Assembly (NCBI GenBank): GCA_036339585.1
Contig: JAYZAS010000024.1
Coordinates: 1 to 34,246, forward strand
DNA from: Pseudomonadota bacterium
GTDB lineage: Bacteria; Pseudomonadota; Alphaproteobacteria; UBA8366
Reading direction: 5' to 3'
Length of the DNA: 34,246 nucleotides
Positions 8,672-27,291 of the stretch are shown one piece after another; positions within the stretch are counted from its first letter, which is position 1; every line of letters begins with the position of its first letter. The notes under the pieces were generated by a model. The model worked only from the letters and a program-made list of their open reading frames with translations, did no database searches and had not been told where the DNA came from. A program made the translations under genes and the position numbers.

Positions 8672-8950
8672 ATGAAAAACATAAATGACATTGATGTGAG
8701 GCGCAGGCGTTTGCGTTTCCGGTGCTGGCATCGCGGAACAAAGGAAGCTGATATGCTGCTCGGACGTTTCGCGGATGCACATATTGAAAAAATGGAACCG
8801 GCAGAGCTAGATCAGCTTGAAGTCATTCTTGGGCACAATGACCTAGATCTTTACAATTGGATTTCTGGTAATACCCCATGGCCTGCGAATGTGGTCTGTG
8901 ATTTGACTGAACGTTTAAGCAGATTTTGTGCTGAGGGCGGGCATCGCTAA
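8672..8950 (+). CDS. sdhE: FAD assembly factor SdhE (succinate dehydrogenase assembly factor 2)
   Basis: SdhE helps attach FAD covalently to the succinate dehydrogenase flavoprotein. This 92-residue protein contains the diagnostic RGxxE motif (HRGTKEADMLLG), preceded by a basic RRRRLRFRCWHR stretch and followed by LDQLEVILGHNDLDLYNWISG, which matches the SdhE five-helix fold. ATG 8672 is chosen because homologues start shortly before the basic segment; an in-frame TTG or GTG further upstream would add non-conserved residues. It lies between recG (divergent) and mfd, and its 3' end overlaps the mfd GTG start by 23 nt, which suggests translational coupling. Confidence 0.9.
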   Translation: MKNINDIDVRRRRLRFRCWHRGTKEADMLLGRFADAHIEKMEPAELDQLEVILGHNDLDLYNWISGNTPWPANVVCDLTERLSRFCAEGGHR

Positions 8951-11900
8951 AGCTGTGGCTGCGAAAAAAGAAAGACGGATAGGCGGTGTACCGGAAGGCT
9001 ATGATGCCTTTTTATTATCGCAGTCTGCCTATAAAGCAGCAGCGCCTATCGTGCACGTATGCCGCGATGATGCCCGTCTCGATTTATTGCTGAAAGCTCT
9101 CGCTTTTTTCTCGCCGAATCTTAAGGTAGCAGATTTCCCCGCTTGGGATTGTTTGCCATACGATCGGGTGTCTCCAATCACCGACATCACAGCGCGACGC
9201 CTCACTACTCTGAAAAGTCTCATAAATGAAGCAAATACCCCAAAGATTGTACTTACGACAGTAAGCGCCATCACACAGCGAATACCGCCAAGGTCATTTA
9301 TACAAAATAGCACTATGAGCATTGCGGTTGGGGAGACTGTTGATCGTGACGCATTAGTTCAATTTCTTGTTCGGAATGGTTATCTGCATGCTGAAACGGT
9401 CCGTGAAACAGGCGAGTATGCAATTCGGGGTGGCATAATTGACATTTTTTGCCCAGGTGAACCCGACCCACTTCGGCTTGATTTCTTTGGGGAGCAAGTT
9501 GAATCAATCCGGTGCTTTGATGCTGTTACCCAGCGATCAAAAATGAAACGCGAAAATCTAAACTTGCAGCCAATTAGTGAAGCATCGCTCGATAAGGACA
9601 GTATTGCGCTTTTTCGAGCCCGTTATAGGAATGCTTTCGGTGTTCCTTGCGAAAACGACGTTGTGTATGAGGCGGTGAGCGCAGGCCGGCGTCCACCTGG
9701 GTACGAACATTGGCTTCCATTTTTTCATGAGAAATTAGAAACTCTTTTCGATTACTTACCTAATTCCGCACTATCGTTTGACCATCAATGGGAACATGCT
9801 TTTCAGGAGCGCCAGCAAACAATTAACGACCATTACAATGCCCGTATCGATTTTCTGCCATCTAACCTGAGAGAGGCTACGAATCAACATGACCCTGTCT
9901 ATCGTCCTGTTGAACAAGAGGAAATGTTTCTTAGGCTAGCAGAGTGGGAAGACGCGATAGGGCATAACGAGTGTTATTTTTATTCCCCGTATGAGGAGGG
10001 CGGAGAAACCGCAAAGGCACGGGCGTCGACCGATTTCATTGAAGCAAGGCAGCGTGAAGACATTAACCTTTTTAAAGAGGTTGATAATGTCATCAGGGAT
10101 GTGGGACGCAAAAAGCCAGTCATAATTGCAGCAGCGAGTGTTGGTTCTCGCGATCGATTAGGTAAGCTTATTACAAGTGGTGGCTCAACGGCACTCGTAA
10201 ATGTAGACAGCTGGCCTGATGTTAAGGGAATGCTTAAGCCTAATGAGGCATATATCACAGTTTGGGAAACAACCCACGGATTTAACGCGTCTGAACTTCT
10301 TGTTTTAAGTGAGGAAGATATCCTTGGCGATCGATTAGCCCGTTCTGCTAAGCGTCGTCGGCATGCCAAAGAATATATTTCTGAAGTAGGTTCGATGGAG
10401 TTGGGTGATCTCGTTGTTCACATTGATAACGGTGTCGGGCGGTATGATGGACTAGAAAGTCTTACCGTCGATGGTGCCCCTCATGATTGTGTGCGGTTAA
10501 TTTATGCTGGCGAGGATCGACTTTTCATTCCAGTTGAAAATATCGATACGCTGTCGCGTTACGGTGCAGAAAAATCAAATGCCTTTCTCGACAGGCTCGG
10601 GGCAGTTTCGTGGCAGGCGCGGAGAGCAGCTGTCAAAGAGCGGATCAACGACATGGCAGATAAATTGATGAAGCTAGCGGCTGAACGTACGCTTATCCTA
10701 GCGCCGGCAATGTCGCCGCCGCCCGGCGCCTATGAAGAGTTCTCTGCTCGTTTTGCATGGGATGAGACTGAAGATCAACGAAATGCGATTGAGGATGTGA
10801 TTTCTGATCTAGGGCAAACGCATGCCATGGATCGATTGATATGTGGTGATGTTGGTTTCGGAAAAACAGAAGTTGCTATGCGTGCCGCTTTCGTAGCTGC
10901 ATCAAATGGTTATCAAGTGGCAGTTGTCGTGCCTACCACGCTACTGGCGTTTCAACATCATGAAACCTTTAAACAACGCTTTGCTGGTCTCCCGATAAAT
11001 GTATCACAGCTTTCACGCTTGGTTGGCGCTAAAGAAGCGAAAACCACTAAGGAACAATTAAAAAATGGTGAGATTGATATTGTTGTCGGCACGCATACAC
11101 TTCTGGCGAAGGATGTTGAATTTAATAACATTGGATTACTTGTAGTTGATGAGGAACAACATTTTGGTGTTTCCCAAAAAGAGCGTCTCAAAGATTTGCG
11201 GAGGGGCCTCCATGTTTTAACGCTCACAGCAACGCCTATTCCCCGAACTCTTCAATTAGCCCTTGCTGGGGCACGAGACATGAGCATGATAGCCAGCCCG
11301 CCTGTGGATCGCCTATCTATCCGCTCATTTGTGTTGCCATTTGATCCCGTAGTTATTCGGGAAGCTATCAATAGAGAGCGACATCGTGGGGGGCAGATAT
11401 TCTATGTATGCCCAAGAATTGCAGACATAGAGCGCCTAGAAAAGCGTCTTTCCGAACTCGCGCCAGATGCGAGGGTTGCTATCGCACATGGTCAAATGGC
11501 TCCTCGGGTTTTGGAAGCGGTTATCAATGATTTTAATCAACGCAAGGCCGATATTCTATTATCAACCAATATAATAGAGGCTGGCATCGATATTCCTAAT
11601 GCCAACACAATGTTAGTGCATCGCGCTGATCGATTTGGTCTTTCCCAACTTTATCAATTGAGGGGGCGGATTGGTCGTGGCAAAGCGCGGGCTTACGCAT
11701 ACTTCACGCTGCCCTCAGGACAAATTTTGTCCGGCTCTGCCCAAAAACGCCTTTCTGTGATGCAAACATTGGACACCCTCGGCGCTGGATTTACATTGGC
11801 AAGCCATGACCTAGATATCCGTGGAGCAGGAAATCTCCTTGGCGGTGAACAATCTGGGCATATTAAAGAGGTAGGAGTTGAACTTTATCAACATATGCTG

Positions 11901-12437
11901 GAAGAAGCCGTTGCTGAATTGCAGGAAGAAAAGACGGGTGTGTCTGTACGTAAGGAAGATTGGTCCCCACAAATTTCGTTGGGTGTGGCTGTATTGATCC
12001 CTGATGAATACGTTGCAGATCTAGGCCTGCGATTAGGTTTATACAGAAGACTCTCGAAGATTGGATCCTCGACTGAGATTGAAGCATTTGCATCAGAGTT
12101 GATAGACCGCTTCGGTCCGATACCCAAACCAGTTGAAAATTTGTTGAAGGTCATGGAAATCAAAAACCTTTGTCGCAATGCTGGAGTAGAAAAGGTTGAT
12201 GCCGGCACCGGGGGTGCTTCAGTTGTATTGCGAGAATCCCGATTTGCCAATCCGTTAGCACTGGTCGAATATATTCAGCGGCATCCTACAAATGTAAAGC
12301 TACGGCCCGATCAAAGTCTTGTGTTCCGCTCTGACTGGCCCATGCCTGACCAAAGATTAGATGGTGTAACAAAAATAGCGCGCGAATTGGCCGATCTCGC
12401 TACTAGGGAAGCTGCTGAAAAAACAAATCAGTGTTAG
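8928..12437 (+). CDS. mfd: Transcription-repair coupling factor Mfd
   Basis: Mfd removes RNA polymerase stalled at lesions and recruits UvrA. The 1169-residue protein shows the UvrB-like N-terminal module (about 20-260, with VRETGEYAIRGGIIDIF), the CarD-like polymerase-interacting domain (about 490-560, GDLVVHIDNGVGRYDGLE), a RecG-like translocase with Walker A GDVGFGKT (about 642-649) and DEEQ (about 740), LRGRIGRG (about 912), and the C-terminal TRCF domain (about 1010-1120). The length is normal. The most plausible start is GTG 8928, inside sdhE; a GTG at 8955, after the sdhE stop, is the alternative. Its TAG stop overlaps the stop of the convergent Lin0512 gene by 4 nt. Confidence 0.97.
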   Translation: MLRAGIAKAVAAKKERRIGGVPEGYDAFLLSQSAYKAAAPIVHVCRDDARLDLLLKALAFFSPNLKVADFPAWDCLPYDRVSPITDITARRLTTLKSLINEANTPKIVLTTVSAITQRIPPRSFIQNSTMSIAVGETVDRDALVQFLVRNGYLHAETVRETGEYAIRGGIIDIFCPGEPDPLRLDFFGEQVESIRCFDAVTQRSKMKRENLNLQPISEASLDKDSIALFRARYRNAFGVPCENDVVYEAVSAGRRPPGYEHWLPFFHEKLETLFDYLPNSALSFDHQWEHAFQERQQTINDHYNARIDFLPSNLREATNQHDPVYRPVEQEEMFLRLAEWEDAIGHNECYFYSPYEEGGETAKARASTDFIEARQREDINLFKEVDNVIRDVGRKKPVIIAAASVGSRDRLGKLITSGGSTALVNVDSWPDVKGMLKPNEAYITVWETTHGFNASELLVLSEEDILGDRLARSAKRRRHAKEYISEVGSMELGDLVVHIDNGVGRYDGLESLTVDGAPHDCVRLIYAGEDRLFIPVENIDTLSRYGAEKSNAFLDRLGAVSWQARRAAVKERINDMADKLMKLAAERTLILAPAMSPPPGAYEEFSARFAWDETEDQRNAIEDVISDLGQTHAMDRLICGDVGFGKTEVAMRAAFVAASNGYQVAVVVPTTLLAFQHHETFKQRFAGLPINVSQLSRLVGAKEAKTTKEQLKNGEIDIVVGTHTLLAKDVEFNNIGLLVVDEEQHFGVSQKERLKDLRRGLHVLTLTATPIPRTLQLALAGARDMSMIASPPVDRLSIRSFVLPFDPVVIREAINRERHRGGQIFYVCPRIADIERLEKRLSELAPDARVAIAHGQMAPRVLEAVINDFNQRKADILLSTNIIEAGIDIPNANTMLVHRADRFGLSQLYQLRGRIGRGKARAYAYFTLPSGQILSGSAQKRLSVMQTLDTLGAGFTLASHDLDIRGAGNLLGGEQSGHIKEVGVELYQHMLEEAVAELQEEKTGVSVRKEDWSPQISLGVAVLIPDEYVADLGLRLGLYRRLSKIGSSTEIEAFASELIDRFGPIPKPVENLLKVMEIKNLCRNAGVEKVDAGTGGASVVLRESRFANPLALVEYIQRHPTNVKLRPDQSLVFRSDWPMPDQRLDGVTKIARELADLATREAAEKTNQC

Positions 12438-12775
12438 GGAAGATCCAAACGGACATCAATTGCAGCACTTGCAATTACTGCAGGGTCATCTCGCTCATCA
12501 TCGGGAACATCCAAGCCGCCGAGAACTGCTGAGACTGTCACACTACCAACTGGTAGTATTTTCTTAACAGCGTTTGTGTCAACTTGATCTGGCTTCTGAA
12601 CGCCAATTGTAACGTCTACTTTCACATCATTTTTGTTGATGTTAAGCGTTCGTATCATTGTTAGAGAGCTATGATGAAGGGCATCCTCAACTGCGCGTAT
12701 GGCGGCCTTGGTATAATCGCAGCCATGTAAGTCATTGCCAGAACCCATTTCTAATATTACTCGTTTCAAGGGCAT
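12434..12775 (-). CDS. Lin0512 family protein, copy 2
   Basis: A protein of 113 residues resembling the Lin0512 family of unknown function: an N-terminal KRVILEMGSGNDLHG strand-loop, then DYTKAAIRAVEDALHHSSL and a DVTIGVQKPDQVD segment. It aligns almost without gaps to the gene just upstream (12787-13128), so the pair is a tandem duplication. GAGGAC stands 6 nt before the ATG, and only 11 nt separate the two genes, so they form an operon reading leftward. The TAA stop overlaps the mfd TAG stop tail to tail. The fold suggests a small alpha/beta protein that probably pairs with its paralogue, but no activity is known to me. Confidence 0.8.
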   Translation of the reverse strand: MPLKRVILEMGSGNDLHGCDYTKAAIRAVEDALHHSSLTMIRTLNINKNDVKVDVTIGVQKPDQVDTNAVKKILPVGSVTVSAVLGGLDVPDDERDDPAVIASAAIDVRLDLP

Positions 12776-12786
12776 GTATCCGTCCT

Positions 12787-13128
12787 CTAAGCTAGGTCTA
12801 AGTGCACAACTGCGGCTGCATGTGCGATAAGCGTGTTATCGTCACTGTCATCCTTGGGAATCTTTAACCCTCCTTCAACCACATTTATCGATCCAGTACC
12901 GTGAGGGAGAACAGCTAATACTTCGTCTTTGTCAACGCTGTCAGGGTCTGGCACTCCGATAGTAACTTCGGTGATCATTGAGTCAGTATCCATATTAAGC
13001 GCTTTCGCAATGCTAAGTGAGTTATGCCAAAGAGCATCGCGTAATGCGCGCACTGCTGCTTTTGTTGGGTCACTGCCTCTAATATCAGTGCCCATTCCAA
13101 TCTCTAGCACAACACGTTTCATTGTCAT
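12787..13128 (-). CDS. Lin0512 family protein, copy 1
   Basis: First gene of the two-gene Lin0512 operon, 113 residues. It shares the pattern of the second copy: KRVVLEIGMGTDIRG, then DPTKAAVRALRDALWHNSL, a VTIGVPDPDSVD segment, an internal LPHGTGSINVVEGGLKIP, and a C-terminal HAAAVVHLDLA. The GxGxDxxGxDxTKAAxRA core is retained in both copies, so both are probably functional. GGAG lies 9 nt upstream of ATG 13126-13128; a second ATG two codons later is equally placed. The function is unknown. It is divergent from the acyl-CoA synthetase operon, with a 216-nt shared upstream region. Confidence 0.8.
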   Translation of the reverse strand: MTMKRVVLEIGMGTDIRGSDPTKAAVRALRDALWHNSLSIAKALNMDTDSMITEVTIGVPDPDSVDKDEVLAVLPHGTGSINVVEGGLKIPKDDSDDNTLIAHAAAVVHLDLA

Positions 13129-13344: not shown

Positions 13345-14982
13345 ATGGTGAGTGTCATTTCTAAATATGATGAAAACCTTGGCAAATGTCCGGCGAATTA
13401 CCAATCACTCACGCCGATCAGTTTTCTGGAGAGGTGTTCTCTAGCCTGTCCTAATAAAATCGCTGTTATCGATGGCGCTACAAGTTTTGATTATAAGCAA
13501 TTTTTTGTGCGTTGTAAGCGGCTTGGTTCTGCGTTGCGAAAATACGGCGTCGGAAAAGGTGATACAGTCTCGGTAATGGCGCCTAATGTGCCAGCACTTC
13601 TTGAGGCCCATTACGGTGTCCCAATGATTGGCGCCGTAATCAATGCGATGAATACTCGATTAGATGCAGATGCCATTGCCTTTATTCTCGCTCATGCCGA
13701 GACAAAAGTCCTACTAACTGATCGCGCCTTTTCAACAGTTATGGAGGTTGCTCTCCAAAAAGTTGATCATCAAATAATGGTTGTTGATATAGATCATCCT
13801 CAAATTATAGACGGAAAGTCACTCGGTAACATTGATTATGAAGGTCTCCTCGACGAGGGAGATCCGCACTTCAAATGGCATAGGCCTGATGATGAATGGG
13901 ATGCAATCGCTCTTAATTATACATCCGGAACGACAGGAGACCCGAAGGGTGTGGTATACCACCACCGAGGTGCCTACTTAAATGCGATGGGTTCGTCTTC
14001 TGCATTTGGTTTTACTTCGGACACCACATACCTCTGGACCCTTCCTATGTTCCATTGCAATGGTTGGTGCAATACATGGGGAATTAGCGTTGTGGGTGGC
14101 ACGCATGTGTGCCTACGTACAGTTGATCCTTCAGAAATTTTTAATCTTATAAGAAAGCATCGTGTTACCCATCTAGCGGGTGCGCCAGTCGTCCTCAATA
14201 TGCTGATACATGCACCAAAAGAAGTAAAAGATGAATTTATTCACGGACCGATAGAGATAGCCACTGGCGGCGCCGCCCCTCCAAGCTCTGTTCTTTCGGG
14301 TATGCAAGAGATGGGTTTCAATGTGCGTCATCTATATGGATTGACCGAGAGTTATGGACCTTCGACTGTATGCGATTGGCAGCCTGAATGGGATGCCTTA
14401 GAATTTGACGCGCAGGTTGCTAAGGTTGCGCGTCAAGGGGTCCGGACGATAAGCATGGAGGATCAAAGGGTGGTGGATCTTGATACGCAAAAAGATGTTC
14501 CCTTTGATGCTGAAACTGTTGGCGAGATAGTCCTGAGAAGTAATACCATCATGAAAGGATATTTAAAGAATGCACATGCCACAAAAACGGCACTGAAGGG
14601 GGGCTGGTTCCATACGGGTGATCTCGCAGTTGTCCACCCAGATGGCTATGTAGAGATTAAGGATAGGGCAAAGGACATAATTATTTCCGGTGGAGAAAAT
14701 ATTTCCAGTCTCGAAGTTGAAGAAGTTCTTTATCGCCATCCCTTAATAATGGAGGCCGCAGTTGTCGCAGTATCCCATGATAAATGGGGTGAAACACCCT
14801 GCGCTTTTGTAACCTTGGTAGGGGATGCAGGTTGTATTACCGAGGAGGAGATCATTTTGTATTGCCGAGAAAACATGGCTAATTTTAAAGTACCCTCTCG
14901 GATTGTGTTTGGCGAGCTTCCTAAGACATCGACCGGTAAAATTCAAAAGTTTGCGCTTCGCGAACTAGCAAAAAAGGGGTGA
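13345..14982 (+). CDS. Acyl-CoA synthetase (AMP-forming; DmdB/LvaE-like)
   Basis: A 545-residue member of the ANL superfamily. It adenylates a carboxylic acid and passes the acyl group to CoA. The signature NYTSGTTGDPKGVVYHHRGA is near residues 193-212. LYGLTESYG supplies the A5 motif, GWFHTGDLAVVHPDGYVEIKDRAKD the A7/A8 hinge, and PKTSTGKIQKFALRELA the catalytic C-terminal Lys region. Insertions such as WDALEFDAQVAKVARQG resemble the subgroup that includes DmdB (3-methylmercaptopropionyl-CoA ligase) and medium-chain ligases, so the substrate cannot be fixed from sequence. ATG 13345 follows GAGAAAG at good spacing. It is the first gene of a six-gene operon with SDR, NIPSNAP, ACAD, kinase and DUF6285, which points to activation of a keto or hydroxy acid. 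Confidence 0.9.
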   Translation: MVSVISKYDENLGKCPANYQSLTPISFLERCSLACPNKIAVIDGATSFDYKQFFVRCKRLGSALRKYGVGKGDTVSVMAPNVPALLEAHYGVPMIGAVINAMNTRLDADAIAFILAHAETKVLLTDRAFSTVMEVALQKVDHQIMVVDIDHPQIIDGKSLGNIDYEGLLDEGDPHFKWHRPDDEWDAIALNYTSGTTGDPKGVVYHHRGAYLNAMGSSSAFGFTSDTTYLWTLPMFHCNGWCNTWGISVVGGTHVCLRTVDPSEIFNLIRKHRVTHLAGAPVVLNMLIHAPKEVKDEFIHGPIEIATGGAAPPSSVLSGMQEMGFNVRHLYGLTESYGPSTVCDWQPEWDALEFDAQVAKVARQGVRTISMEDQRVVDLDTQKDVPFDAETVGEIVLRSNTIMKGYLKNAHATKTALKGGWFHTGDLAVVHPDGYVEIKDRAKDIIISGGENISSLEVEEVLYRHPLIMEAAVVAVSHDKWGETPCAFVTLVGDAGCITEEEIILYCRENMANFKVPSRIVFGELPKTSTGKIQKFALRELAKKG

Positions 14983-14985
14983 TTT

Positions 14986-15732
14986 GTGGGAATGCTTGAC
15001 GGAAAGACTGCGCTTGTCACCGGGGGTTCTGGAAGGCTGGGTGCTTATTTTGCGCGTTTGTTGGCTGGTGAGGGTGCGAAAGTAGCAGTTGGTGCAAGGC
15101 GACTAGACAGGCTTGAGAATTTGGCAACTGAAGTTCAGGGTTTAGTGCCGATTAAAATGGATGTGACTGACGTTAATAGTGTTGAGAAGGGTATCCTCGA
15201 AGCTGATAGTAAACTAGGCGGTATATCAATCTTGATCAATAATTCGGGAGTGGCAAACTCAAGCGCTGCACTTGGGGTTGATGAGGAAGAATGGGATACC
15301 GTTTTGGATACAAATTTAAAAGGTGCGTGGTTGGTAGCAAAATCGGTAGCCGAGCGAATGATACATAGCGGTAATGGTGGCTCCATCGTGAACATAGCTT
15401 CTGTGCTTGCTTTTAAAGTGCAAAAAGGCACGATGCCTTACGGTGTTTCGAAAGCGGCATTGGTTCAGCTGACGCGTTCGCTCGCTGCCGAATGGGCGCG
15501 GTATGGTATCCGTGTAAATGCCATAGCGCCCGGATACATTGAGACTGACATCAATAGAAATTATTTACAATCAAATGCAGGTCGAGCCATGTTGAAATCT
15601 ATTCCCCAAAGGCGTTTTGGTGAGCCAGAAGATCTTGGTGGCATAGTTGTGCTTTTAGCTGGTGATGCATCTGCCTACATTACGGGGGCTTTGGTTCCGG
15701 TAGACGGTGGGCACACTCTTATGCTCGCCTGA
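14986..15732 (+). CDS. Short-chain dehydrogenase/reductase (LvaD-like position)
   Basis: A classical SDR of 248 residues. The nucleotide-binding TGGSGRLGAYFA replaces the common GIG by RLG. It also has NNSG, the catalytic Ser in NIASVLA, Tyr/Lys in YGVSKAA (about 152-156), and the C-terminal YITGALVPVDGG. Enzymes of this type interconvert keto and hydroxy groups using NAD(P)H. The gene starts at GTG 14986, 3 nt after the synthetase stop, or at ATG 14992, so it is tightly coupled to the synthetase. In the context of the downstream ACAD/kinase pair it may reduce a 4-ketoacyl-CoA to the 4-hydroxy form, or act on 3-hydroxyacyl-CoA; this is inference from the lva operon. Confidence 0.88.
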   Translation: MGMLDGKTALVTGGSGRLGAYFARLLAGEGAKVAVGARRLDRLENLATEVQGLVPIKMDVTDVNSVEKGILEADSKLGGISILINNSGVANSSAALGVDEEEWDTVLDTNLKGAWLVAKSVAERMIHSGNGGSIVNIASVLAFKVQKGTMPYGVSKAALVQLTRSLAAEWARYGIRVNAIAPGYIETDINRNYLQSNAGRAMLKSIPQRRFGEPEDLGGIVVLLAGDASAYITGALVPVDGGHTLMLA

Positions 15733-15774
15733 ATAAACATCTCTCTCAATCATTGAAAAATCGGAGATAAAAAA

Positions 15775-16104
15775 ATGATCATTGAGAAGCGGACCTATAG
15801 TCTACGTTCTGGCGGTGTGGCGCAATATATGGAAATTTATAAAAAATACGGTCTACAGGTTCAAACCAGGACACTAGGCGGTCTTGTTGGGTGGTTTTAC
15901 CCTGAGGTTGGAGAGCTAAACCAAATAGTGCACATGTGGGCTTACAAAAGTCTTTCTGAAAGAACACGCAGACGTGCAAAATTACACAGAACAAAAGAAT
16001 GGCAAACCTATCTTGCTAAGCAACGAGAGGCGGAACTCATTGTTAAACAAGAAAGCCAAATTCTTACGCCCGCGCCATGGTCTCCTGTTCCTAAAATAAA
16101 ATGA
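15775..16104 (+). CDS. NIPSNAP family protein
   Basis: A 109-residue single-domain protein of the dimeric ferredoxin-like NIPSNAP family. It opens with MIIEKRTYSLRSGGVAQYME and contains GLVGWFYPEVGELNQIVHMW and an Arg-rich ERTRRRAKLHR helix, the usual order for the family. NIPSNAP proteins are widespread beside catabolic genes but have no well-defined reaction. GGAG lies 9 nt before the ATG. It sits between the SDR (42-nt gap) and the acyl-CoA dehydrogenase (14-nt gap), so it belongs to the operon. It could be an accessory isomerase-like or binding protein for the CoA intermediates, but this is a guess. Confidence 0.85.
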   Translation: MIIEKRTYSLRSGGVAQYMEIYKKYGLQVQTRTLGGLVGWFYPEVGELNQIVHMWAYKSLSERTRRRAKLHRTKEWQTYLAKQREAELIVKQESQILTPAPWSPVPKIK

Positions 16105-16118
16105 TAAGGTAATGAAAA

Positions 16119-17315
16119 ATGGATTTTAACCTTACGGAACGGTCAGAGGCATCACGAGCGCGGATACGTAAAATCGTAGATGACCATATTATTCCGCTTG
16201 AGAGTGAACGAACTAATTTCGACGAGCACGAAAATATAGCATCAGCACCCCTTGAAAAACTGAAAGAGCTAACGAAAAAAAACGGTTTATGGTCCTTGTC
16301 CCTTCCCGAAAAATGGGGAGGGCGGGGGTTTTCCATGACTGAGATAGCCTCGTGTTACGAAGAAATGAATCGTTCGATCTTTGGTCCTGTTTGTTTCAAT
16401 GCTTCTGCGCCTGATGATGGGAATATGCGAGTATTGTCTCAAGTGGCTCGCCTCGATCAGCAGGAAAAGTGGCTGCCCGCCATTGCAGAGGGGAAAGTGC
16501 GCTCTTCTTTCATAATGACAGAGCCTCATCCTGGTTCTGGGTCAGACCCGTCGATGATGAGAACTCGAGCTGAGAGAAAGGGAGACAAATGGATAGTCAA
16601 TGGTCACAAATGGTACATCACTGGTGCCGGAGTTGCTGAACATTTTATCCTTATCGCTCGGACATCACAGGATGCGCGTAAAGGGTTGTCTGCCTTCTTG
16701 TTTCACCGCGACACACCAGGATGGAGGATTGAAAGGCGCATTCCGATCATGGGGCCAGAAGAACATGGGGGACATTGCGAGATTTTTTTCGAAGATATGG
16801 AAATTCCGGACGAGGATCGACTAATGGATGTTGGGGACGGACTTAAATTAACCCAAATAAGACTGGGTCCGGCTCGATTGACCCATTGCATGCGATGGCT
16901 GGGTCTTGCAAGGCGTGCATTAGAAATTGCCACTGAGTACGTGGGCAAGCGTGAGGGGTTTGGTATCAAGCTTGCTGATAGAGAAAGTGTTCAATGGCTG
17001 CTTGGCGAAGCGGCAATGGAAATTCAGATTGGTCGGATGCTTGTTATGCATGCGGCATGGAAGTTAGATCAGGGAGACTTCGCTCGCAAGGAAATATCAA
17101 TGGCGAAAATACAAGTTGCTGATACCCTTCATAAAGCTGTGGATACGGCCATACAGCTCAATGGAGCACGAGGTTATTCGAAGGACACGGTACTTGAATG
17201 GATTTACCGCTATGCTCGCCAAGCAAGATTAGTTGATGGAGCTTCTGAAGTTCACAAAATGGTGCTTGCGAAAAATCTTTACGCCGATGGGGCGGACTTT
17301 TGGCATTGGGGTTAG
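16119..17315 (+). CDS. ACAD10/11-like acyl-CoA dehydrogenase family protein (LvaC-like)
   Basis: A 398-residue acyl-CoA dehydrogenase fold: N-terminal helical domain, FAD/substrate-binding middle with FIMTEPHPGSGSDPSMM and KWYITGAG, and C-terminal helical bundle with QLNGARGYSKDTVLEWIY. Where ordinary dehydrogenases carry the catalytic Glu of YEGT, this protein has VDGASEVHK, with Asp at about residue 373. This matches the ACAD10/11 and LvaC group, which removes phosphate from 4-phosphoacyl-CoA rather than doing simple dehydrogenation. An APH kinase gene overlaps its 3' end by 16 nt, mirroring the APH-ACAD fusion of animal ACAD10/11. AAGGT precedes the ATG. A plain dehydrogenase is the alternative. 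Confidence 0.85.
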   Translation: MDFNLTERSEASRARIRKIVDDHIIPLESERTNFDEHENIASAPLEKLKELTKKNGLWSLSLPEKWGGRGFSMTEIASCYEEMNRSIFGPVCFNASAPDDGNMRVLSQVARLDQQEKWLPAIAEGKVRSSFIMTEPHPGSGSDPSMMRTRAERKGDKWIVNGHKWYITGAGVAEHFILIARTSQDARKGLSAFLFHRDTPGWRIERRIPIMGPEEHGGHCEIFFEDMEIPDEDRLMDVGDGLKLTQIRLGPARLTHCMRWLGLARRALEIATEYVGKREGFGIKLADRESVQWLLGEAAMEIQIGRMLVMHAAWKLDQGDFARKEISMAKIQVADTLHKAVDTAIQLNGARGYSKDTVLEWIYRYARQARLVDGASEVHKMVLAKNLYADGADFWHWG

Positions 17316-18325
17316 AAAAACTATCAGGGTTTCTCTCTGAAAAGGCTGAAGCAGGTAGTTGCCGCATAACTCAATTTGAGAAGATGAGTGGCGGGGCTAT
17401 ACAGGAAAATTATGCCCTTGATGTGACATTCGACGGTGGTCTTTTAAATGGGGCGCATGAATTGGTTTTGCGAACTGATGCGCCTTCGGTTGTTGAAGTA
17501 AGCCATTCCCGTGCCCATGAATTCCAGGTCCTCAAGAAGGCCTATGAAGCGGGTGTTATGGTGCCGGAACCTTTATGGGTCTGTTCAGATTCCTCTGTCT
17601 TTGGGCGTCCTTTCTACATAATGCGCAGGGTTAAAGGCGTTGCTGAGGGGCACATACTGGTCAAGGATGAAGCGGTCAAGACAAATGCGGAGGGGCTTCT
17701 TGAGCACTTGGGAGGTCAGCTCGCTAAAATCCACTCAATCACGCCAGGCAGCCATTCTTTTGATTTCCTTAAAATTCCTGATCCGACGCCAGCAGCAGCT
17801 GGAGTTGAATTTTTTAGAGAGTGTCTAGATAGATTGCCTGAAGCCTACCCAACAATTGAATGGGGTTTGCGTTGGCTCGAATTAAATGCGCCCGAAAATA
17901 TGATTTTGGTTCTAAATCATCGTGATTATCGTGTAGGTAATCTGATGCTCGATAATGGAGTTCTTACGGGAATTCTGGATTGGGAGTTTGCTGATTGGAG
18001 TGATTTTCACGAAGATATTGGATGGTTTTGTGCGCGCTGTTGGCGCTTTGGAAACTTCGGTCTGGAGGCTGGGGGTATAGGGTCGCGCGAAGCATTTTAC
18101 CGGGGCTATACTGAGGTAAGTGGGAGGAGTATTGATCCGGCCCAGGCTTTTTATTGGGAGACGTTTGCTCACATGCGTTGGGCGGTAATTGCTATTCAAC
18201 AAGGTGAACGGCATGTGTCTGGAGGAGAGGAATCCCTTCATTTAGCGCTTACCGGTCGGGTCTGCGCCGAGTTAGAATGGGAGTTGCTTCGGATGACTGA
18301 TCCTAAAAATAAACAAAGAGGTTGA
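17300..18325 (+). CDS. APH-family phosphotransferase (LvaA / ACAD10-11 kinase-domain-like)
   Basis: An aminoglycoside-phosphotransferase-fold kinase of 341 residues. The glycine-rich loop region is MSGGAIQENYALDV, the catalytic loop LNHRDYRVGNLMLDNG fits HxDxxxxN (Asp about 209), and the metal-binding LDWEFADWSDFHEDIGWF follows at about 226. The closest functional comparison is the kinase half of ACAD10/11 and bacterial LvaA, which phosphorylate 4-hydroxyacyl-CoA. Drug resistance is unlikely in this context. The start appears to be TTG 17300, within the ACAD gene, since the fold needs about 28 residues before the Gly loop; the next Met is inside that loop. The DUF6285 gene begins 1 nt after its stop. 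Confidence 0.85.
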   Translation: MALGLEKLSGFLSEKAEAGSCRITQFEKMSGGAIQENYALDVTFDGGLLNGAHELVLRTDAPSVVEVSHSRAHEFQVLKKAYEAGVMVPEPLWVCSDSSVFGRPFYIMRRVKGVAEGHILVKDEAVKTNAEGLLEHLGGQLAKIHSITPGSHSFDFLKIPDPTPAAAGVEFFRECLDRLPEAYPTIEWGLRWLELNAPENMILVLNHRDYRVGNLMLDNGVLTGILDWEFADWSDFHEDIGWFCARCWRFGNFGLEAGGIGSREAFYRGYTEVSGRSIDPAQAFYWETFAHMRWAVIAIQQGERHVSGGEESLHLALTGRVCAELEWELLRMTDPKNKQRG

Positions 18326-18326
18326 T

Positions 18327-18698
18327 GTGGAACGTAATAGTCCAACCGCTAAGGATTTGCTGGAGACAGCAATATCTCTCTTGCGTAATCAGGTCCTCCC
18401 GAATACGCCAACTTCACAAAAATTGAATCTGCTTATGATTTCCAGCGCCATGGCCATTGCAGCTCGTGAATTAAACGGATCGATTGAGCTTGAGGTAACG
18501 ACTATATCAAATTTAAAGAGGCTTTATCCCAACGAGATGCGCGCGGATTTCGCTGAATTAAAGAGTATTCTTTCTTCTGATATTCGATCTGGTAAATTTG
18601 ATGACAGTGATGCGGTCTACTCAGTGCTTGTAGAAAATACCCGAAGGCGTCTTGAAATAAGTAATCCTCGGCATCTGAAATATTCCGAAAGCAAATAA
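18327..18698 (+). CDS. DUF6285 protein, probable kinase partner (LvaB-like)
   Basis: A small helical protein of 123 residues with the DUF6285 pattern: a leading AKDLLETAISLLRNQVLPN, central MISSAMAIAARELNGSIELE, and a C-terminal RRRLEISNPRHLKY. In the P. putida lva operon the small LvaB protein is needed with LvaA for phosphorylation of 4-hydroxyvaleryl-CoA; this gene has the matching size and lies directly after the kinase. The GTG start at 18327 has AGAGG 7 nt upstream. It is the last gene of the operon; no clear terminator hairpin follows. Confidence 0.8.
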   Translation: MERNSPTAKDLLETAISLLRNQVLPNTPTSQKLNLLMISSAMAIAARELNGSIELEVTTISNLKRLYPNEMRADFAELKSILSSDIRSGKFDDSDAVYSVLVENTRRRLEISNPRHLKYSESK

Positions 18699-18853
18699 AA
18701 AGGATACTGCTGTTTTATTGCGTATTTTTTCTTGCGTAATTAATCCGGCTACCCCTACATCTGTCACCAACAAACACCGATATCAAATAATTATTCCTTT
18801 TGTCTAAATTATTTATCAGCGATATTTTTTACAAAGGCGATGTGGGAGGACCT

Positions 18854-19798
18854 ATGGAAAAAAAAATGTCAAAGCAATTACGCGACCTTGTCGAGCAGCC
18901 AGGTATTCTGGTCAAGCCGGGTGCTTATAATGCACTGAGTGCCAAAATTATTGAGGCGGCAGGGTTTCAGTGTTGTGGCATCTCTGGGTATGCAGTTTCC
19001 GTAAGTCTACTAGGAAAACCGGATGTCGGACTTGTAACATTGAATGAGCTTGCAATGGTCACTAATTATGTGACCAGTTCAGTCAACATCCCAGTTCTCG
19101 TAGATGTGGATACAGGATTTGGTAACGCCATAAATGTTATGCGGACAACTGAAGATTTTATTAAGGCCGGTGCGGCAGCTATTCATATGGAAGATCAGGT
19201 AGCGCCAAAAAGGTGCGGTCATGTTGCTGGAAAAGAGGTGATATCCATAGAAGAGGCGGTTGGTAAGTACCGTGCTGCAGCTAAAGTTCGGGACGAAATG
19301 GATTCGGATTTTCTATTGGTAGCTCGCACCGATGCGCGCGGTGTAGCGGGAGGGACATTGGATGACGTAATCACTCGGGCCAAGGCCTATGCCGAGGCTG
19401 GAGCGGATATGATTTTTCCCGAGGGTCTGGTGTCTGAAGAGGAAATTGAACGTGTGTGCCAAGAGGTTTCAGTGCCTATTCACTATAATCGCACCGGTGT
19501 TTCCCCGATGATCTCGAAGGAGAAACTCAGATCATATGGCGTCAAAATGGTCAGCAATGCTACCGGAGCGCTTCGAACAACTGCTCGTGCTATCTGGGAT
19601 TATATGCACGATTTTTCGGAAGGCGACGTGGATTATGTGCAACAATTTCTGTCCGAAGGCAAAGACCACCCTACAGGAGACCTTCACTCATTTGTGGGCT
19701 TTCCTGACATAAAGGCATTAGAGAAGGAGTATCTCCCCTCCGAGGATGTGCTGAAAAAATACGAGGGTTCTTTGGGTTTTCAGCCTAAGCCTGATTAA
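18854..19798 (+). CDS. Isocitrate lyase / PEP mutase family protein (methylisocitrate-lyase-like)
   Basis: A 314-residue TIM-barrel protein of the ICL/PEPM superfamily. LVDVDTGFGNAINV carries metal-binding acidic residues. HMEDQVAPKRCGH contains the KxCGH loop (about residues 118-122) whose Cys is the acid catalyst in C-C lyases, so a lyase (2-methylisocitrate, 2,3-dimethylmalate or oxaloacetate decarboxylase type) is more likely than a phosphonomutase. VARTDARGVAGG and PEGLVSEEEIERV complete the barrel. Start ATG 18854 is preferred because GGGAGG lies 4 nt upstream; an upstream TTG at 18800 would add a non-conserved extension. It lies 155 nt after the DUF6285 gene and converges on the TauD gene with a 4-nt stop overlap. 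Confidence 0.88.
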   Translation: MEKKMSKQLRDLVEQPGILVKPGAYNALSAKIIEAAGFQCCGISGYAVSVSLLGKPDVGLVTLNELAMVTNYVTSSVNIPVLVDVDTGFGNAINVMRTTEDFIKAGAAAIHMEDQVAPKRCGHVAGKEVISIEEAVGKYRAAAKVRDEMDSDFLLVARTDARGVAGGTLDDVITRAKAYAEAGADMIFPEGLVSEEEIERVCQEVSVPIHYNRTGVSPMISKEKLRSYGVKMVSNATGALRTTARAIWDYMHDFSEGDVDYVQQFLSEGKDHPTGDLHSFVGFPDIKALEKEYLPSEDVLKKYEGSLGFQPKPD

Positions 19799-24924: not shown

Positions 24925-27291
24925 TTGACTACCAAGGGTTTAAAAAACAACAAAACCGTTGCTGGTGCAGACAGCGCTGGATCAGCAGAACAACTGAGGG
25001 CTTTATTAGACCGGACCACGACTAAGCTCCACCAAACTGAATTTCTGCTTTCTGTTACGCGCAAAATTTCAGGGTTGAAAAATTTAAGTGATATTTTGTG
25101 GGCACTTATTCAATTGACAACGGAAGAACTGGGTGCAGACCGAGGCAGTCTTTTTTTGAATGATCCGATGACTGGTGAGCTCTACACAAGAATTGCTCAA
25201 GGCGATCTCACCCGGGAAATCCGAATACTCAATAACACCGGTATTGCTGGAGCTGTTTTTCAGTCTGGTGTGAGTGAGATTATCCACAATGCTTACGATG
25301 ATGACAGATTCAATGCGAAAGTCGATGAACAAACAGGATTTAAAACAAAAAATATAATTTGTGCTCCAATTAAGACGGCGAGGGGCGAGACGATTGGGGT
25401 TATACAAATTCTTAATAAAAAGAAAGGACGCTTTACCAAACATGAGCTCCGATTGGTCGAGGGCATCACCTCTCAGGCGTCCATTTCACTCCAGAATGCC
25501 CAGGGCATCGAGGAAATGGAAAGGACACGAGAAAAAGAAATGCAATTTCTTGACATTGTTTCTGATGTCACCGCTGAGATTGAGCTTGGAACATTGCTCC
25601 AACGGGTAATGGTTGAGTCTACGAAAATGCTCAATGCGGACCGAGCAACATTATTTTTAAACGATACCAAAACTAACGAACTATTTACTCGTGTTGCGAT
25701 GGGTGAGGGAATAGGGGAAATCAGAATGCCAAACGATGTTGGGATAGCTGGTGCTGTATATCAATCACAAGAGACCATCAACATTCCCCACGCTTATGCT
25801 GATCTAAGATTTAATCCCAGCTTTGATAAGAAAACTGGATACTTTACCAGCTCTATTCTTTGTGTACCGGTAATCAATAAAGATGGGGAATGTATTGGGT
25901 GCACACAGGCACTTAACAAGAAGGGAGGCAGTTTTAATAAAGAAGACGAGGCTCGTCTCCAGGCTTTTACGCAGCAGGTAGCTATTGCTTTGGAAAATGC
26001 AAAGCTGTTTGAGGACGTGGCTAAAGAGCGTGCTTATAATCATAGTATGCTTACCAGCATGTCCAACGCTGTTATCACTATCGATGATGATGGAAAAGTT
26101 ATCACCTGTAACAAAGCGGGTTTGAAACTTTTTAAGGTGCAAAATGTTGATATTATCGGGAAAGGTGCGGATCAATTTTTCAAAAATGAACGCGCGTGGA
26201 TTTTTGAGAAAATCAAAACCTGTGAAGAGACGAGAGAGAATGAATACCTTATTGATGTTGAGTTTGAGGTTGGTACTGAAATAGACGACAGTATTGAAAT
26301 GGTATCTGCAAATATAAGTTTTCTACCTTTAGATAATCAGGACCCTGAGGGAAGAATGGATCAAGTGCAGGATCATTTAGGCACGCTGATTGTTATCGAA
26401 GATATCTCTCAAGAAAAGCGCATGAAATCGACCATGTCGAGGTATATAGATCCCGGGATTGCCGACCAACTTATGGACAAAGGTGCGGACATAATGGGAG
26501 GTCGGGAAACTGAAGTTACGTTACTTTTTTCTGACGTACGTAGTTTCACGACGATAACGGAAAGCCTTGGGGCTCAAGGAACAGTTACCCTCCTCAATGA
26601 TTACTTTAACATAATGGTAGAGGCAATCAGTGAGCAAGGAGGGATGGTTGATAAATTTATCGGCGACGCCATCATGGCCGGGTTTGGAATACCCGTTTCA
26701 CATGACGATGATGAAGATCGTGCGGTACGGGCCGGCGTAAATATGATTAAAAGACTTTGGGAGTGGAATGAAATCCGCGAAAAAGAAGGTCAAATGCCGG
26801 TTGACATGGGCTTGGGGCTTAACACTGACAAGGTAGTGTCTGGAAATATAGGGTCTTCAAAGCGAATGGATTATACGATGATTGGAGACGGGGTAAATCT
26901 TGCAGCTCGTCTTGAAAGCGCTTGTAAGGCCTACTCGGCGCGCATTTTAATTAGTGATTTCACATTCAAAAAATTGAAAGGTACCTACCAAATCAGATAC
27001 ATTGATGATGTCATTGTAAAAGGGAAAACGGAGCCTGTGGGAGTGAGAGAGGTCTTAGATTATCACAATCAAAATAGCTTTCCGAACCTTATGGATACAG
27101 TCAATCATTTCAATGAAGGGCGTATTTCTTTTAAATCGGGAGATTGGGATAAGAGTATCAAGTCCTTTAAGGAGTGTTTGAAGGCCAATCCAATAGATAA
27201 ATTATCCAAGACATACATTGAACGCTGCGAAATCATGAAAAAGAAAAATCCAAAAAAGTGGGATGGCATTTGGGTGATGCAATCGAAATGA
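24925..27291 (+). CDS. Class III adenylate cyclase with GAF-GAF-PAS sensor (CyaB1/CyaB2-like)
   Basis: A 788-residue protein. In order: a helical start, GAF-A (about 45-190), GAF-B (about 205-360), a PAS domain (about 365-490), the cyclase catalytic domain (about 525-700), and a C-terminal TPR-like helical pair (about 725-788). The metal Asp residues are in LLFSDVRSFT (about 535) and KFIGDAIMAGFG (about 580). Lys of VDKFIGD and Asp of KRMDYTMIGDG specify adenine, and VNLAARLES gives the transition-state Asn and Arg, so it should be an active adenylate cyclase. GAF-B keeps an intact NKxFxxxDE motif (NKKGGSFNKEDE), which marks cyclic-nucleotide-binding GAF domains; GAF-A has a degenerate form. 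No membrane segments. TTG 24925 is the start, with GGAGG in front. Confidence 0.93.
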   Translation: MTTKGLKNNKTVAGADSAGSAEQLRALLDRTTTKLHQTEFLLSVTRKISGLKNLSDILWALIQLTTEELGADRGSLFLNDPMTGELYTRIAQGDLTREIRILNNTGIAGAVFQSGVSEIIHNAYDDDRFNAKVDEQTGFKTKNIICAPIKTARGETIGVIQILNKKKGRFTKHELRLVEGITSQASISLQNAQGIEEMERTREKEMQFLDIVSDVTAEIELGTLLQRVMVESTKMLNADRATLFLNDTKTNELFTRVAMGEGIGEIRMPNDVGIAGAVYQSQETINIPHAYADLRFNPSFDKKTGYFTSSILCVPVINKDGECIGCTQALNKKGGSFNKEDEARLQAFTQQVAIALENAKLFEDVAKERAYNHSMLTSMSNAVITIDDDGKVITCNKAGLKLFKVQNVDIIGKGADQFFKNERAWIFEKIKTCEETRENEYLIDVEFEVGTEIDDSIEMVSANISFLPLDNQDPEGRMDQVQDHLGTLIVIEDISQEKRMKSTMSRYIDPGIADQLMDKGADIMGGRETEVTLLFSDVRSFTTITESLGAQGTVTLLNDYFNIMVEAISEQGGMVDKFIGDAIMAGFGIPVSHDDDEDRAVRAGVNMIKRLWEWNEIREKEGQMPVDMGLGLNTDKVVSGNIGSSKRMDYTMIGDGVNLAARLESACKAYSARILISDFTFKKLKGTYQIRYIDDVIVKGKTEPVGVREVLDYHNQNSFPNLMDTVNHFNEGRISFKSGDWDKSIKSFKECLKANPIDKLSKTYIERCEIMKKKNPKKWDGIWVMQSK

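Follow-up and report, generated by a model that had tools for sequence, protein, structure and literature searches.

A six-gene alphaproteobacterial operon predicted to degrade 4-oxo or 4-hydroxy acids through a diverged relative of the levulinate and ACAD10/11 routes

The closest described systems to the locus treated here are the levulinate (lva) operon of Pseudomonas and the mammalian acyl-CoA dehydrogenases (ACADs) ACAD10 and ACAD11. In the lva system pull-down experiments show LvaB in association with LvaA, and growth on levulinate depends on both (Rand et al., 2017, as recounted in PMC6692424). Mouse ACAD11, as described in PMC12440821, needs R626, H634 and R637, which was established by mutation, the base D753, and a redox-active FAD which is not net reduced; a similar catalytic cycle is argued for in PMC11342911. 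In this work we analysed a window of 34,246 nt from an alphaproteobacterium (positions 1 to 34,246 of JAYZAS010000024.1, contig 24 of the genome assembly GCA_036339585.1, which comprises 25 contigs and 2.79 Mb), which carries an operon of six genes for an acyl-CoA synthetase, a short-chain dehydrogenase/reductase (SDR), a NIPSNAP protein, an ACAD, a kinase of the APH fold and a DUF6285 protein. Judged from its sequence, it is highly likely that this operon prepares a 4-oxo and/or 4-hydroxy carboxylic acid for beta-oxidation via CoA activation, phosphorylation and removal of the phosphate, and its route is very probably a diverged form of the levulinate pathway of bacteria and of human ACAD10/11. 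The titles of relatives' records suggest that the host is marine, the nearest named relative being L032, from a metagenome bin with the title uncultured Rhodospirillaceae (L and G numbers denote loci and genomes), whose ACAD is 96% identical.

The sequence-only reading of this DNA had named six genes of these families, five of them belonging to the Lva enzyme classes, in the order E-D-x-C-A-B with a NIPSNAP gene inserted. All six open reading frames are in place and co-directional, with intergenic gaps, in order, of 3, 42, 14, -16 and 1 nt, and every product passes the curated cut-off of its Pfam family (Table 1). Locus L032 has all six genes in identical order at 80-96% identity, and the order is partly repeated in other Pseudomonadota, which argues against a chance arrangement. 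As the reference lva operon we used a stretch of the P. aeruginosa plasmid p12939-PER (NZ_MF344569.1, locus L203), which stands in for P. putida KT2440; it should be noted that "LvaC" in our comparisons is this plasmid protein and not PP_2793 of KT2440. L203 reads PrpR-like regulator, phosphotransferase, annotated lvaB (4-hydroxypentanoyl-CoA kinase subunit), ACAD, SDR, acyl-CoA synthetase, DUF485 and cation acetate symporter, a gene set in agreement with that of the lva operon as told in PMC6692424. By BLAST the two operons share five enzyme classes at 36-53% identity, with the synthetase the closest (53%), then the kinase (49%), the SDR (48%) and the ACAD (40%), and with DUF6285 and LvaB the most distant pair (36%, E 3e-5). 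The link between these last two is nevertheless correct, since the annotated LvaB itself matches DUF6285 (PF19802) at 5e-24. The kinase falls in the LvaA-type clade and keeps D209, N214 and D227 in its HxDxRxGN and DWE motifs, and the two synthetases belong to one NCBIfam subfamily, although both the SDR and the synthetase families are large. The window operon differs from L203 in its gene order, in the inserted NIPSNAP gene, in the clade of its ACAD and in its flanks, where none of the PrpR-type regulator, DUF485 and acetate symporter genes is found; the contrasting A-B-C-D-E order was observed on the plasmid operon and not in P. putida itself. NCBIfam gave no family at cut-off for the window ACAD or kinase and none whatever for the DUF6285 protein; the LvaA and LvaB references likewise matched no family at E 1e-10. 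Scans for promoters and terminators did not rise above shuffled sequence (13 vs 13.1 and 6 vs 8.2, respectively).

Alignment of the window ACAD with mouse ACAD11 places R248, H256, R259 and D373 at the positions of R626, H634, R637 and D753, so that all four diagnostic residues are conserved, and the pocket residues are kept in the window-type ACAD rows wherever the stretch is covered and readable. The genome itself has 13 ACAD matches, and the HCMR motif is absent from the open reading frames at the 12 others. In a tree of 64 proteins, which included 28 window-type rows and seven ordinary ACADs, the phospho-ACADs split from the ordinary ones at 100/99 support and the window-type rows formed one branch (100/100), beside an LvaC branch (98/87, and 99/97 in the second tree) and an ACAD11 branch (100/97); six further rows, from Actinomycetota and Alphaproteobacteria, formed no single branch. 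In a second tree with 13 ordinary rows (12 of them different, and nine taken from the genome of the window) this split again receives 100/99, with the branch order inside the superclade drawn open; some terminal branches are long in these trees. Grouping with ordinary fatty-acid dehydrogenases, which the sequence-only reading had named as the outcome that would speak against it, was thus not seen. Its description of the enzyme as ACAD10/11-like holds at the level of the ACAD10/11-LvaC superclade, but the window rows lie outside the ACAD11 clade in both trees and on a separate branch from the LvaC rows. The window ACAD, as placed by these trees, is a separate clade beside LvaC and ACAD11 and not an LvaC ortholog. 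With the mammalian enzymes and their bacterial homologs it shares the kinase-plus-ACAD chemistry expected of it, the HCMR motif, the upstream arginine and the catalytic aspartate; it differs in that kinase and ACAD are two genes overlapping by 16 nt instead of one fusion, and in that the kinase is of the other, LvaA, type. The same evidence bears on the idea that this is an ordinary beta-oxidation operon with a normal fatty acyl-CoA dehydrogenase, next to which the APH and DUF6285 genes just happen to lie. ACAD, SDR and acyl-CoA synthetase genes are indeed common in catabolism and their Pfam and NCBIfam names are general, but given the placement of the ACAD, its four residues and the presence of kinase and DUF6285 genes near the ACAD in 46 of 70 window-type neighbourhoods we consider this highly improbable.

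The association of kinase and DUF6285 was followed in 107 phospho-ACAD neighbourhoods, each a locus of at least 6 kb with a score of at least 280 bits and an HCMR-like motif. Window-type neighbourhoods lacking the pair carried a kinase only (5) or neither gene (19). DUF6285 was absent from all 23 ACAD11-type neighbourhoods (kinase only 12, neither 11), while the nine LvaC-type ones had both genes in four cases, a kinase only in one and neither in four, and the five of the remaining type had a kinase only in one and neither in four. In an earlier count over 68 window-type loci, which took in short contigs too, profile hidden Markov models (HMMs) detected SDR genes at 63 loci, kinase genes at 47, DUF6285 at 44, synthetase genes at 39 and NIPSNAP at 12; some 15 loci of this set, most of them under the title Roseomonas, share a near-identical map, and several contigs end early. 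The kinase tree (55 rows, after 16 near-duplicate loci had been removed by hand and the window and mouse ACAD11 kinases added) splits at 100/100 into 37 LvaA-type and 18 ACAD11-type kinases, and a DUF6285 neighbour is found in 35 of the former and none of the latter. On this tree DUF6285 needs two changes and ACAD type seven, and the window-type ACADs of L102, L196 and L199 adjoin ACAD11-type kinases. DUF6285 follows the type of the kinase and not that of the ACAD. Among 19 genomes chosen for a window-type ACAD (own included), ten have DUF6285 along with an LvaA-type kinase that matches at 1e-90 or better, and nine have neither. The kinase is an exchangeable module: window-type ACADs are accompanied by an LvaA-type kinase and DUF6285 or by an ACAD11-type kinase lacking it, or are probably served by a kinase gene at another place in the genome. 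One kinase alignment (A4) was discarded, its near-invariant columns in the kinase being read as misplaced DUF6285 rows. That the APH gene encodes an antibiotic phosphotransferase, as its Pfam fold and a low-scoring NCBIfam hit to APH(3') might suggest, has next to no probability: the hit scores 23.6 bits, far under the cut-off of 205, and the kinase is 49% identical to LvaA, sits in the LvaA-type clade and has an operon and a DUF6285 partner.

In eight loci (L037, L038, L039, L080, L042, L043, L194 and L206) kinase and DUF6285 lie in one open frame of 459-533 amino acids, the DUF6285 part scoring 33-98 bits with iterated HMMs whose training included some of the fused sequences. Pfam, run on three of these fusions, placed DUF6285 above cut-off in L042 and, with 24.7 bits, below it in L043, and did not find it in L037; the weaker fusions are less sure, because Pfam misses some of them and the HMMs had absorbed such sequences. 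An AlphaFold model of the L042 fusion (44 aligned rows; mean predicted local distance difference test, pLDDT, 90.7; predicted template modelling score, pTM, 0.90) shows DUF6285 as long helices. Nearly all of its best 50 Foldseek matches are antibiotic kinases of the APH fold, with 25-hydroxysteroid kinase first (TM 0.52-0.65). DUF6285 was not mentioned by name in the literature searched. Binding of LvaB to LvaA has already been reported (PMC6692424), and what is new is that DUF6285 accompanies a single type of kinase regardless of the ACAD, that the two share an open frame in eight loci and that it was not seen together with the ACAD11-type kinase; this would turn a domain of unknown function into a testable kinase subunit and sharpens the role of LvaB. 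The same adjacent set of SDR, ACAD, LvaA-type kinase and DUF6285 is found in clusters of Thermus thermophilus HB8 pTT27 (L204) and of an Azoarcus KH32C plasmid (L202), which differ from the window in having LvaC-clade ACADs, a histidine phosphatase gene after DUF6285 and no NIPSNAP among their annotated genes. The histidine phosphatase gene lies at 10279-10932 in L204 and 10355-11032 in L202, and follows DUF6285 also in L205 (10388-13728, split by an insertion element) and L220 (803-1480).

Twenty genomes with no kinase seen beside the window-type ACAD were searched for one elsewhere; in two of them, G025 and G039, the contig stops at the ACAD or shortly beyond it, and a contig end also follows the ACAD in L073, which was outside this set. 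A kinase is present elsewhere in 19 of the 20. Seventeen match the ACAD11-type kinase of L111 at 34-100% identity (G003, G007, G011, G019, G022, G025, G028, G039, G043, G272, G135 and the genomes of L036, L040, L046, L052, L054 and L062), with placement in the ACAD11-type clade by tree only for G011, G028 and G043. The other two, G318 (in fused form) and the L055 genome, have an LvaA-type kinase and DUF6285 elsewhere. Loss of the phosphate pocket in the ACADs without a local kinase was considered and rejected, the motif being intact in them; for G318, G272 and G135 this is known from the HCMR-like motif used for inclusion, not from alignment rows.

From these parts the following pathway can be proposed. 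The acyl-CoA synthetase would make the CoA ester of the acid, and the SDR, a probable 4-oxoacyl-CoA reductase, would interconvert the 4-oxo and 4-hydroxy forms; for levulinate the reaction would run as a reduction. The LvaA-type kinase, a probable 4-hydroxyacyl-CoA kinase, would phosphorylate the 4-hydroxyl together with DUF6285 as its second subunit. In the ACAD, D373 would take the proton at C2 while R248, H256 and R259 hold the phosphate, which would be expelled with a redox-active FAD and no net reduction to leave a 2-enoyl-CoA. The sequence-only reading had proposed degradation of a 4-hydroxy or 4-keto acid, and at the level of the chemistry the five Lva matches, the ACAD residues and the superclade support it; among levulinate, a lactone-derived acid and a lipid-peroxidation acid the sequence evidence does not decide. 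The genome also encodes a methylmalonyl-CoA mutase, which would allow the use of propionyl-CoA but says little on the substrate, since eight of 14 control genomes match it too.

A number of observations weigh against this pathway and its kinase partners. The window ACAD shares just 40% identity with LvaC and 37% with human ACAD11. Two LvaA-type kinases (L059 and L074) have no nearby DUF6285, which was not matched anywhere in their genomes, and the region of P. citronellolis LA18T analysed in PMC6692424 is reported to have an LvaA homolog (59%) with a histidine phosphatase instead of lvaB; given these exceptions the link between DUF6285 and the LvaA type is not a strict one. The suggestion that the kinases of L059 and L074 are dead found no support, their catalytic residues being intact. 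As for the remote kinases, G037 (64% complete) gave no kinase match, the matches in G358, G135 and G359 are weak (34-40% identity), those in G022, G028 and G039 contain in-frame stops, and three of seven genomes with a local LvaA-type kinase also carry an ACAD11-type one. Such kinases may therefore be common for other reasons, and the 19 of 20 genomes, set against a background frequency taken only from ACAD-bearing genomes, are no more than suggestive of remote kinases serving the window-type ACADs which lack a local one. The distance of the ACAD, in a clade of its own, also leaves some room for the same chemistry on another substrate, with the hydroxyl at a different carbon or on a branched or cyclic acid. 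The 25-hydroxysteroid kinase has an APH-like fold as well and acts on a steroid alcohol, and it heads the Foldseek matches of the fused kinase, although with the modest TM values given above. By sequence, however, it is distant (22 bits with HMMER vs 317 bits with BLAST for LvaA), the pocket residues and the LvaD- and LvaE-like partners are kept, and three window-type ACADs adjoin ACAD11-type kinases, so that we regard a different substrate class as quite unlikely.

Window-type ACADs occur in a scattered way among the Alpha-, Beta- and Gammaproteobacteria. In an even sample of 299 genomes from the phylum, 14 match the window ACAD at 1e-90, all at 62% identity or more and one being the window's own genome, and 81 match human ACAD11 at 1e-120. 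Among 59 genomes searched as relatives (own included) 43 match at 1e-60, some of these with only 34-41% paralogs of other clades. If the proposed pathway is right, 4-hydroxy acid catabolism by phosphorylation extends to a further ACAD clade with this distribution.

NIPSNAP lies directly before the ACAD in ten of the 107 phospho-ACAD neighbourhoods, all of window type (10 of 70), and was rejected as a general part of such operons. Two of the ten loci have no local kinase, which makes a role tied to the kinase unlikely and indicates that NIPSNAP goes with the synthetase-SDR-ACAD part. Thirteen NIPSNAP sequences have 25 invariant columns in common. The AlphaFold model of the window protein (pLDDT 90.2) is matched first by six crystal entries for five NIPSNAP proteins, whose labels read uncharacterized, unknown function or simply NIPSNAP, and after these by LsrG, YgiN and further small enzymes. 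PF07978 has one match in the genome itself and one in G002, and two to eight in ten other relatives searched; nothing on point about NIPSNAP was found in the literature searched. A true pathway enzyme, for example an LsrG/YgiN-like isomerase or a lactone-handling enzyme on the 4-oxo/4-hydroxyacyl intermediate, is a tentative and rather unlikely assignment, which if correct would supply a catalytic role for a family in which the bacterial proteins of solved structure bear only the labels given above.

Table 1. Features of the operon and its surroundings in the window.
Feature	Position	Strand	Evidence
Acyl-CoA synthetase, putatively LvaE-type, 545 aa	13345..14982	+	53% identity to LvaE; NCBIfam PRK08162 passed by both; Pfam AMP-binding 7e-76
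SDR oxidoreductase, putatively LvaD-type, 248 aa	14986..15732	+	48% identity to LvaD; Pfam adh_short_C2 2e-57
NIPSNAP protein, 109 aa	15775..16104	+	PF07978 1e-29
ACAD, phospho-ACAD superclade	16119..17315	+	Tree placement; R248, H256, R259, D373; Pfam Acyl-CoA_dh_1 3e-37
ACAD phosphate-pocket stretch R248 to R259 (RLGPARLTHCMR)	16860..16895	+	Aligned to mouse ACAD11 R626, H634, R637
ACAD catalytic aspartate D373	17235..17237	+	Aligned to mouse ACAD11 D753
APH-fold kinase, LvaA-type, 341 aa, TTG start	17300..18325	+	49% identity to LvaA; LvaA-type clade; Pfam APH 8e-33
DUF6285 protein, LvaB-type, 123 aa	18327..18698	+	PF19802 1e-12; annotated LvaB also matches PF19802
Mfd-type transcription-repair helicase	8928..12437	+	TRCF, CarD_TRCF domains
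Two adjacent Lin0512-family genes, 113 aa each	12434..13128	-	PF09585
PEP mutase/isocitrate lyase-family gene	18800..19798	+	Nearest prpB, under cut-off (254 of 354 bits)
GAF-GAF-PAS protein	24925..27291	+	Adenylate/guanylate cyclase catalytic domain

In place of the lva flanks, the operon has the Lin0512 pair and the Mfd-type helicase upstream and phosphoenolpyruvate (PEP) mutase-family, TauD and ferrochelatase genes downstream. The Lin0512 genes are divergent from the operon, and the pair recurs in the relatives L032, L033, L045 and L076. A member of the helicase's family is found near 19 of the 68 window-type loci, which suggests that the place is vertically kept. The PEP-mutase-family protein contains a KRCGH stretch, and its gene is also downstream in L032, L033 and L044, with an extra open reading frame between in the latter two. 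In L061 (9076-16369), as in similar Roseomonas loci, the cluster continues into a synthetase, a CaiB-type CoA transferase, a second ACAD and an enoyl-CoA hydratase. Further along the window lies the gene for a GAF-GAF-PAS protein with a cyclase domain.

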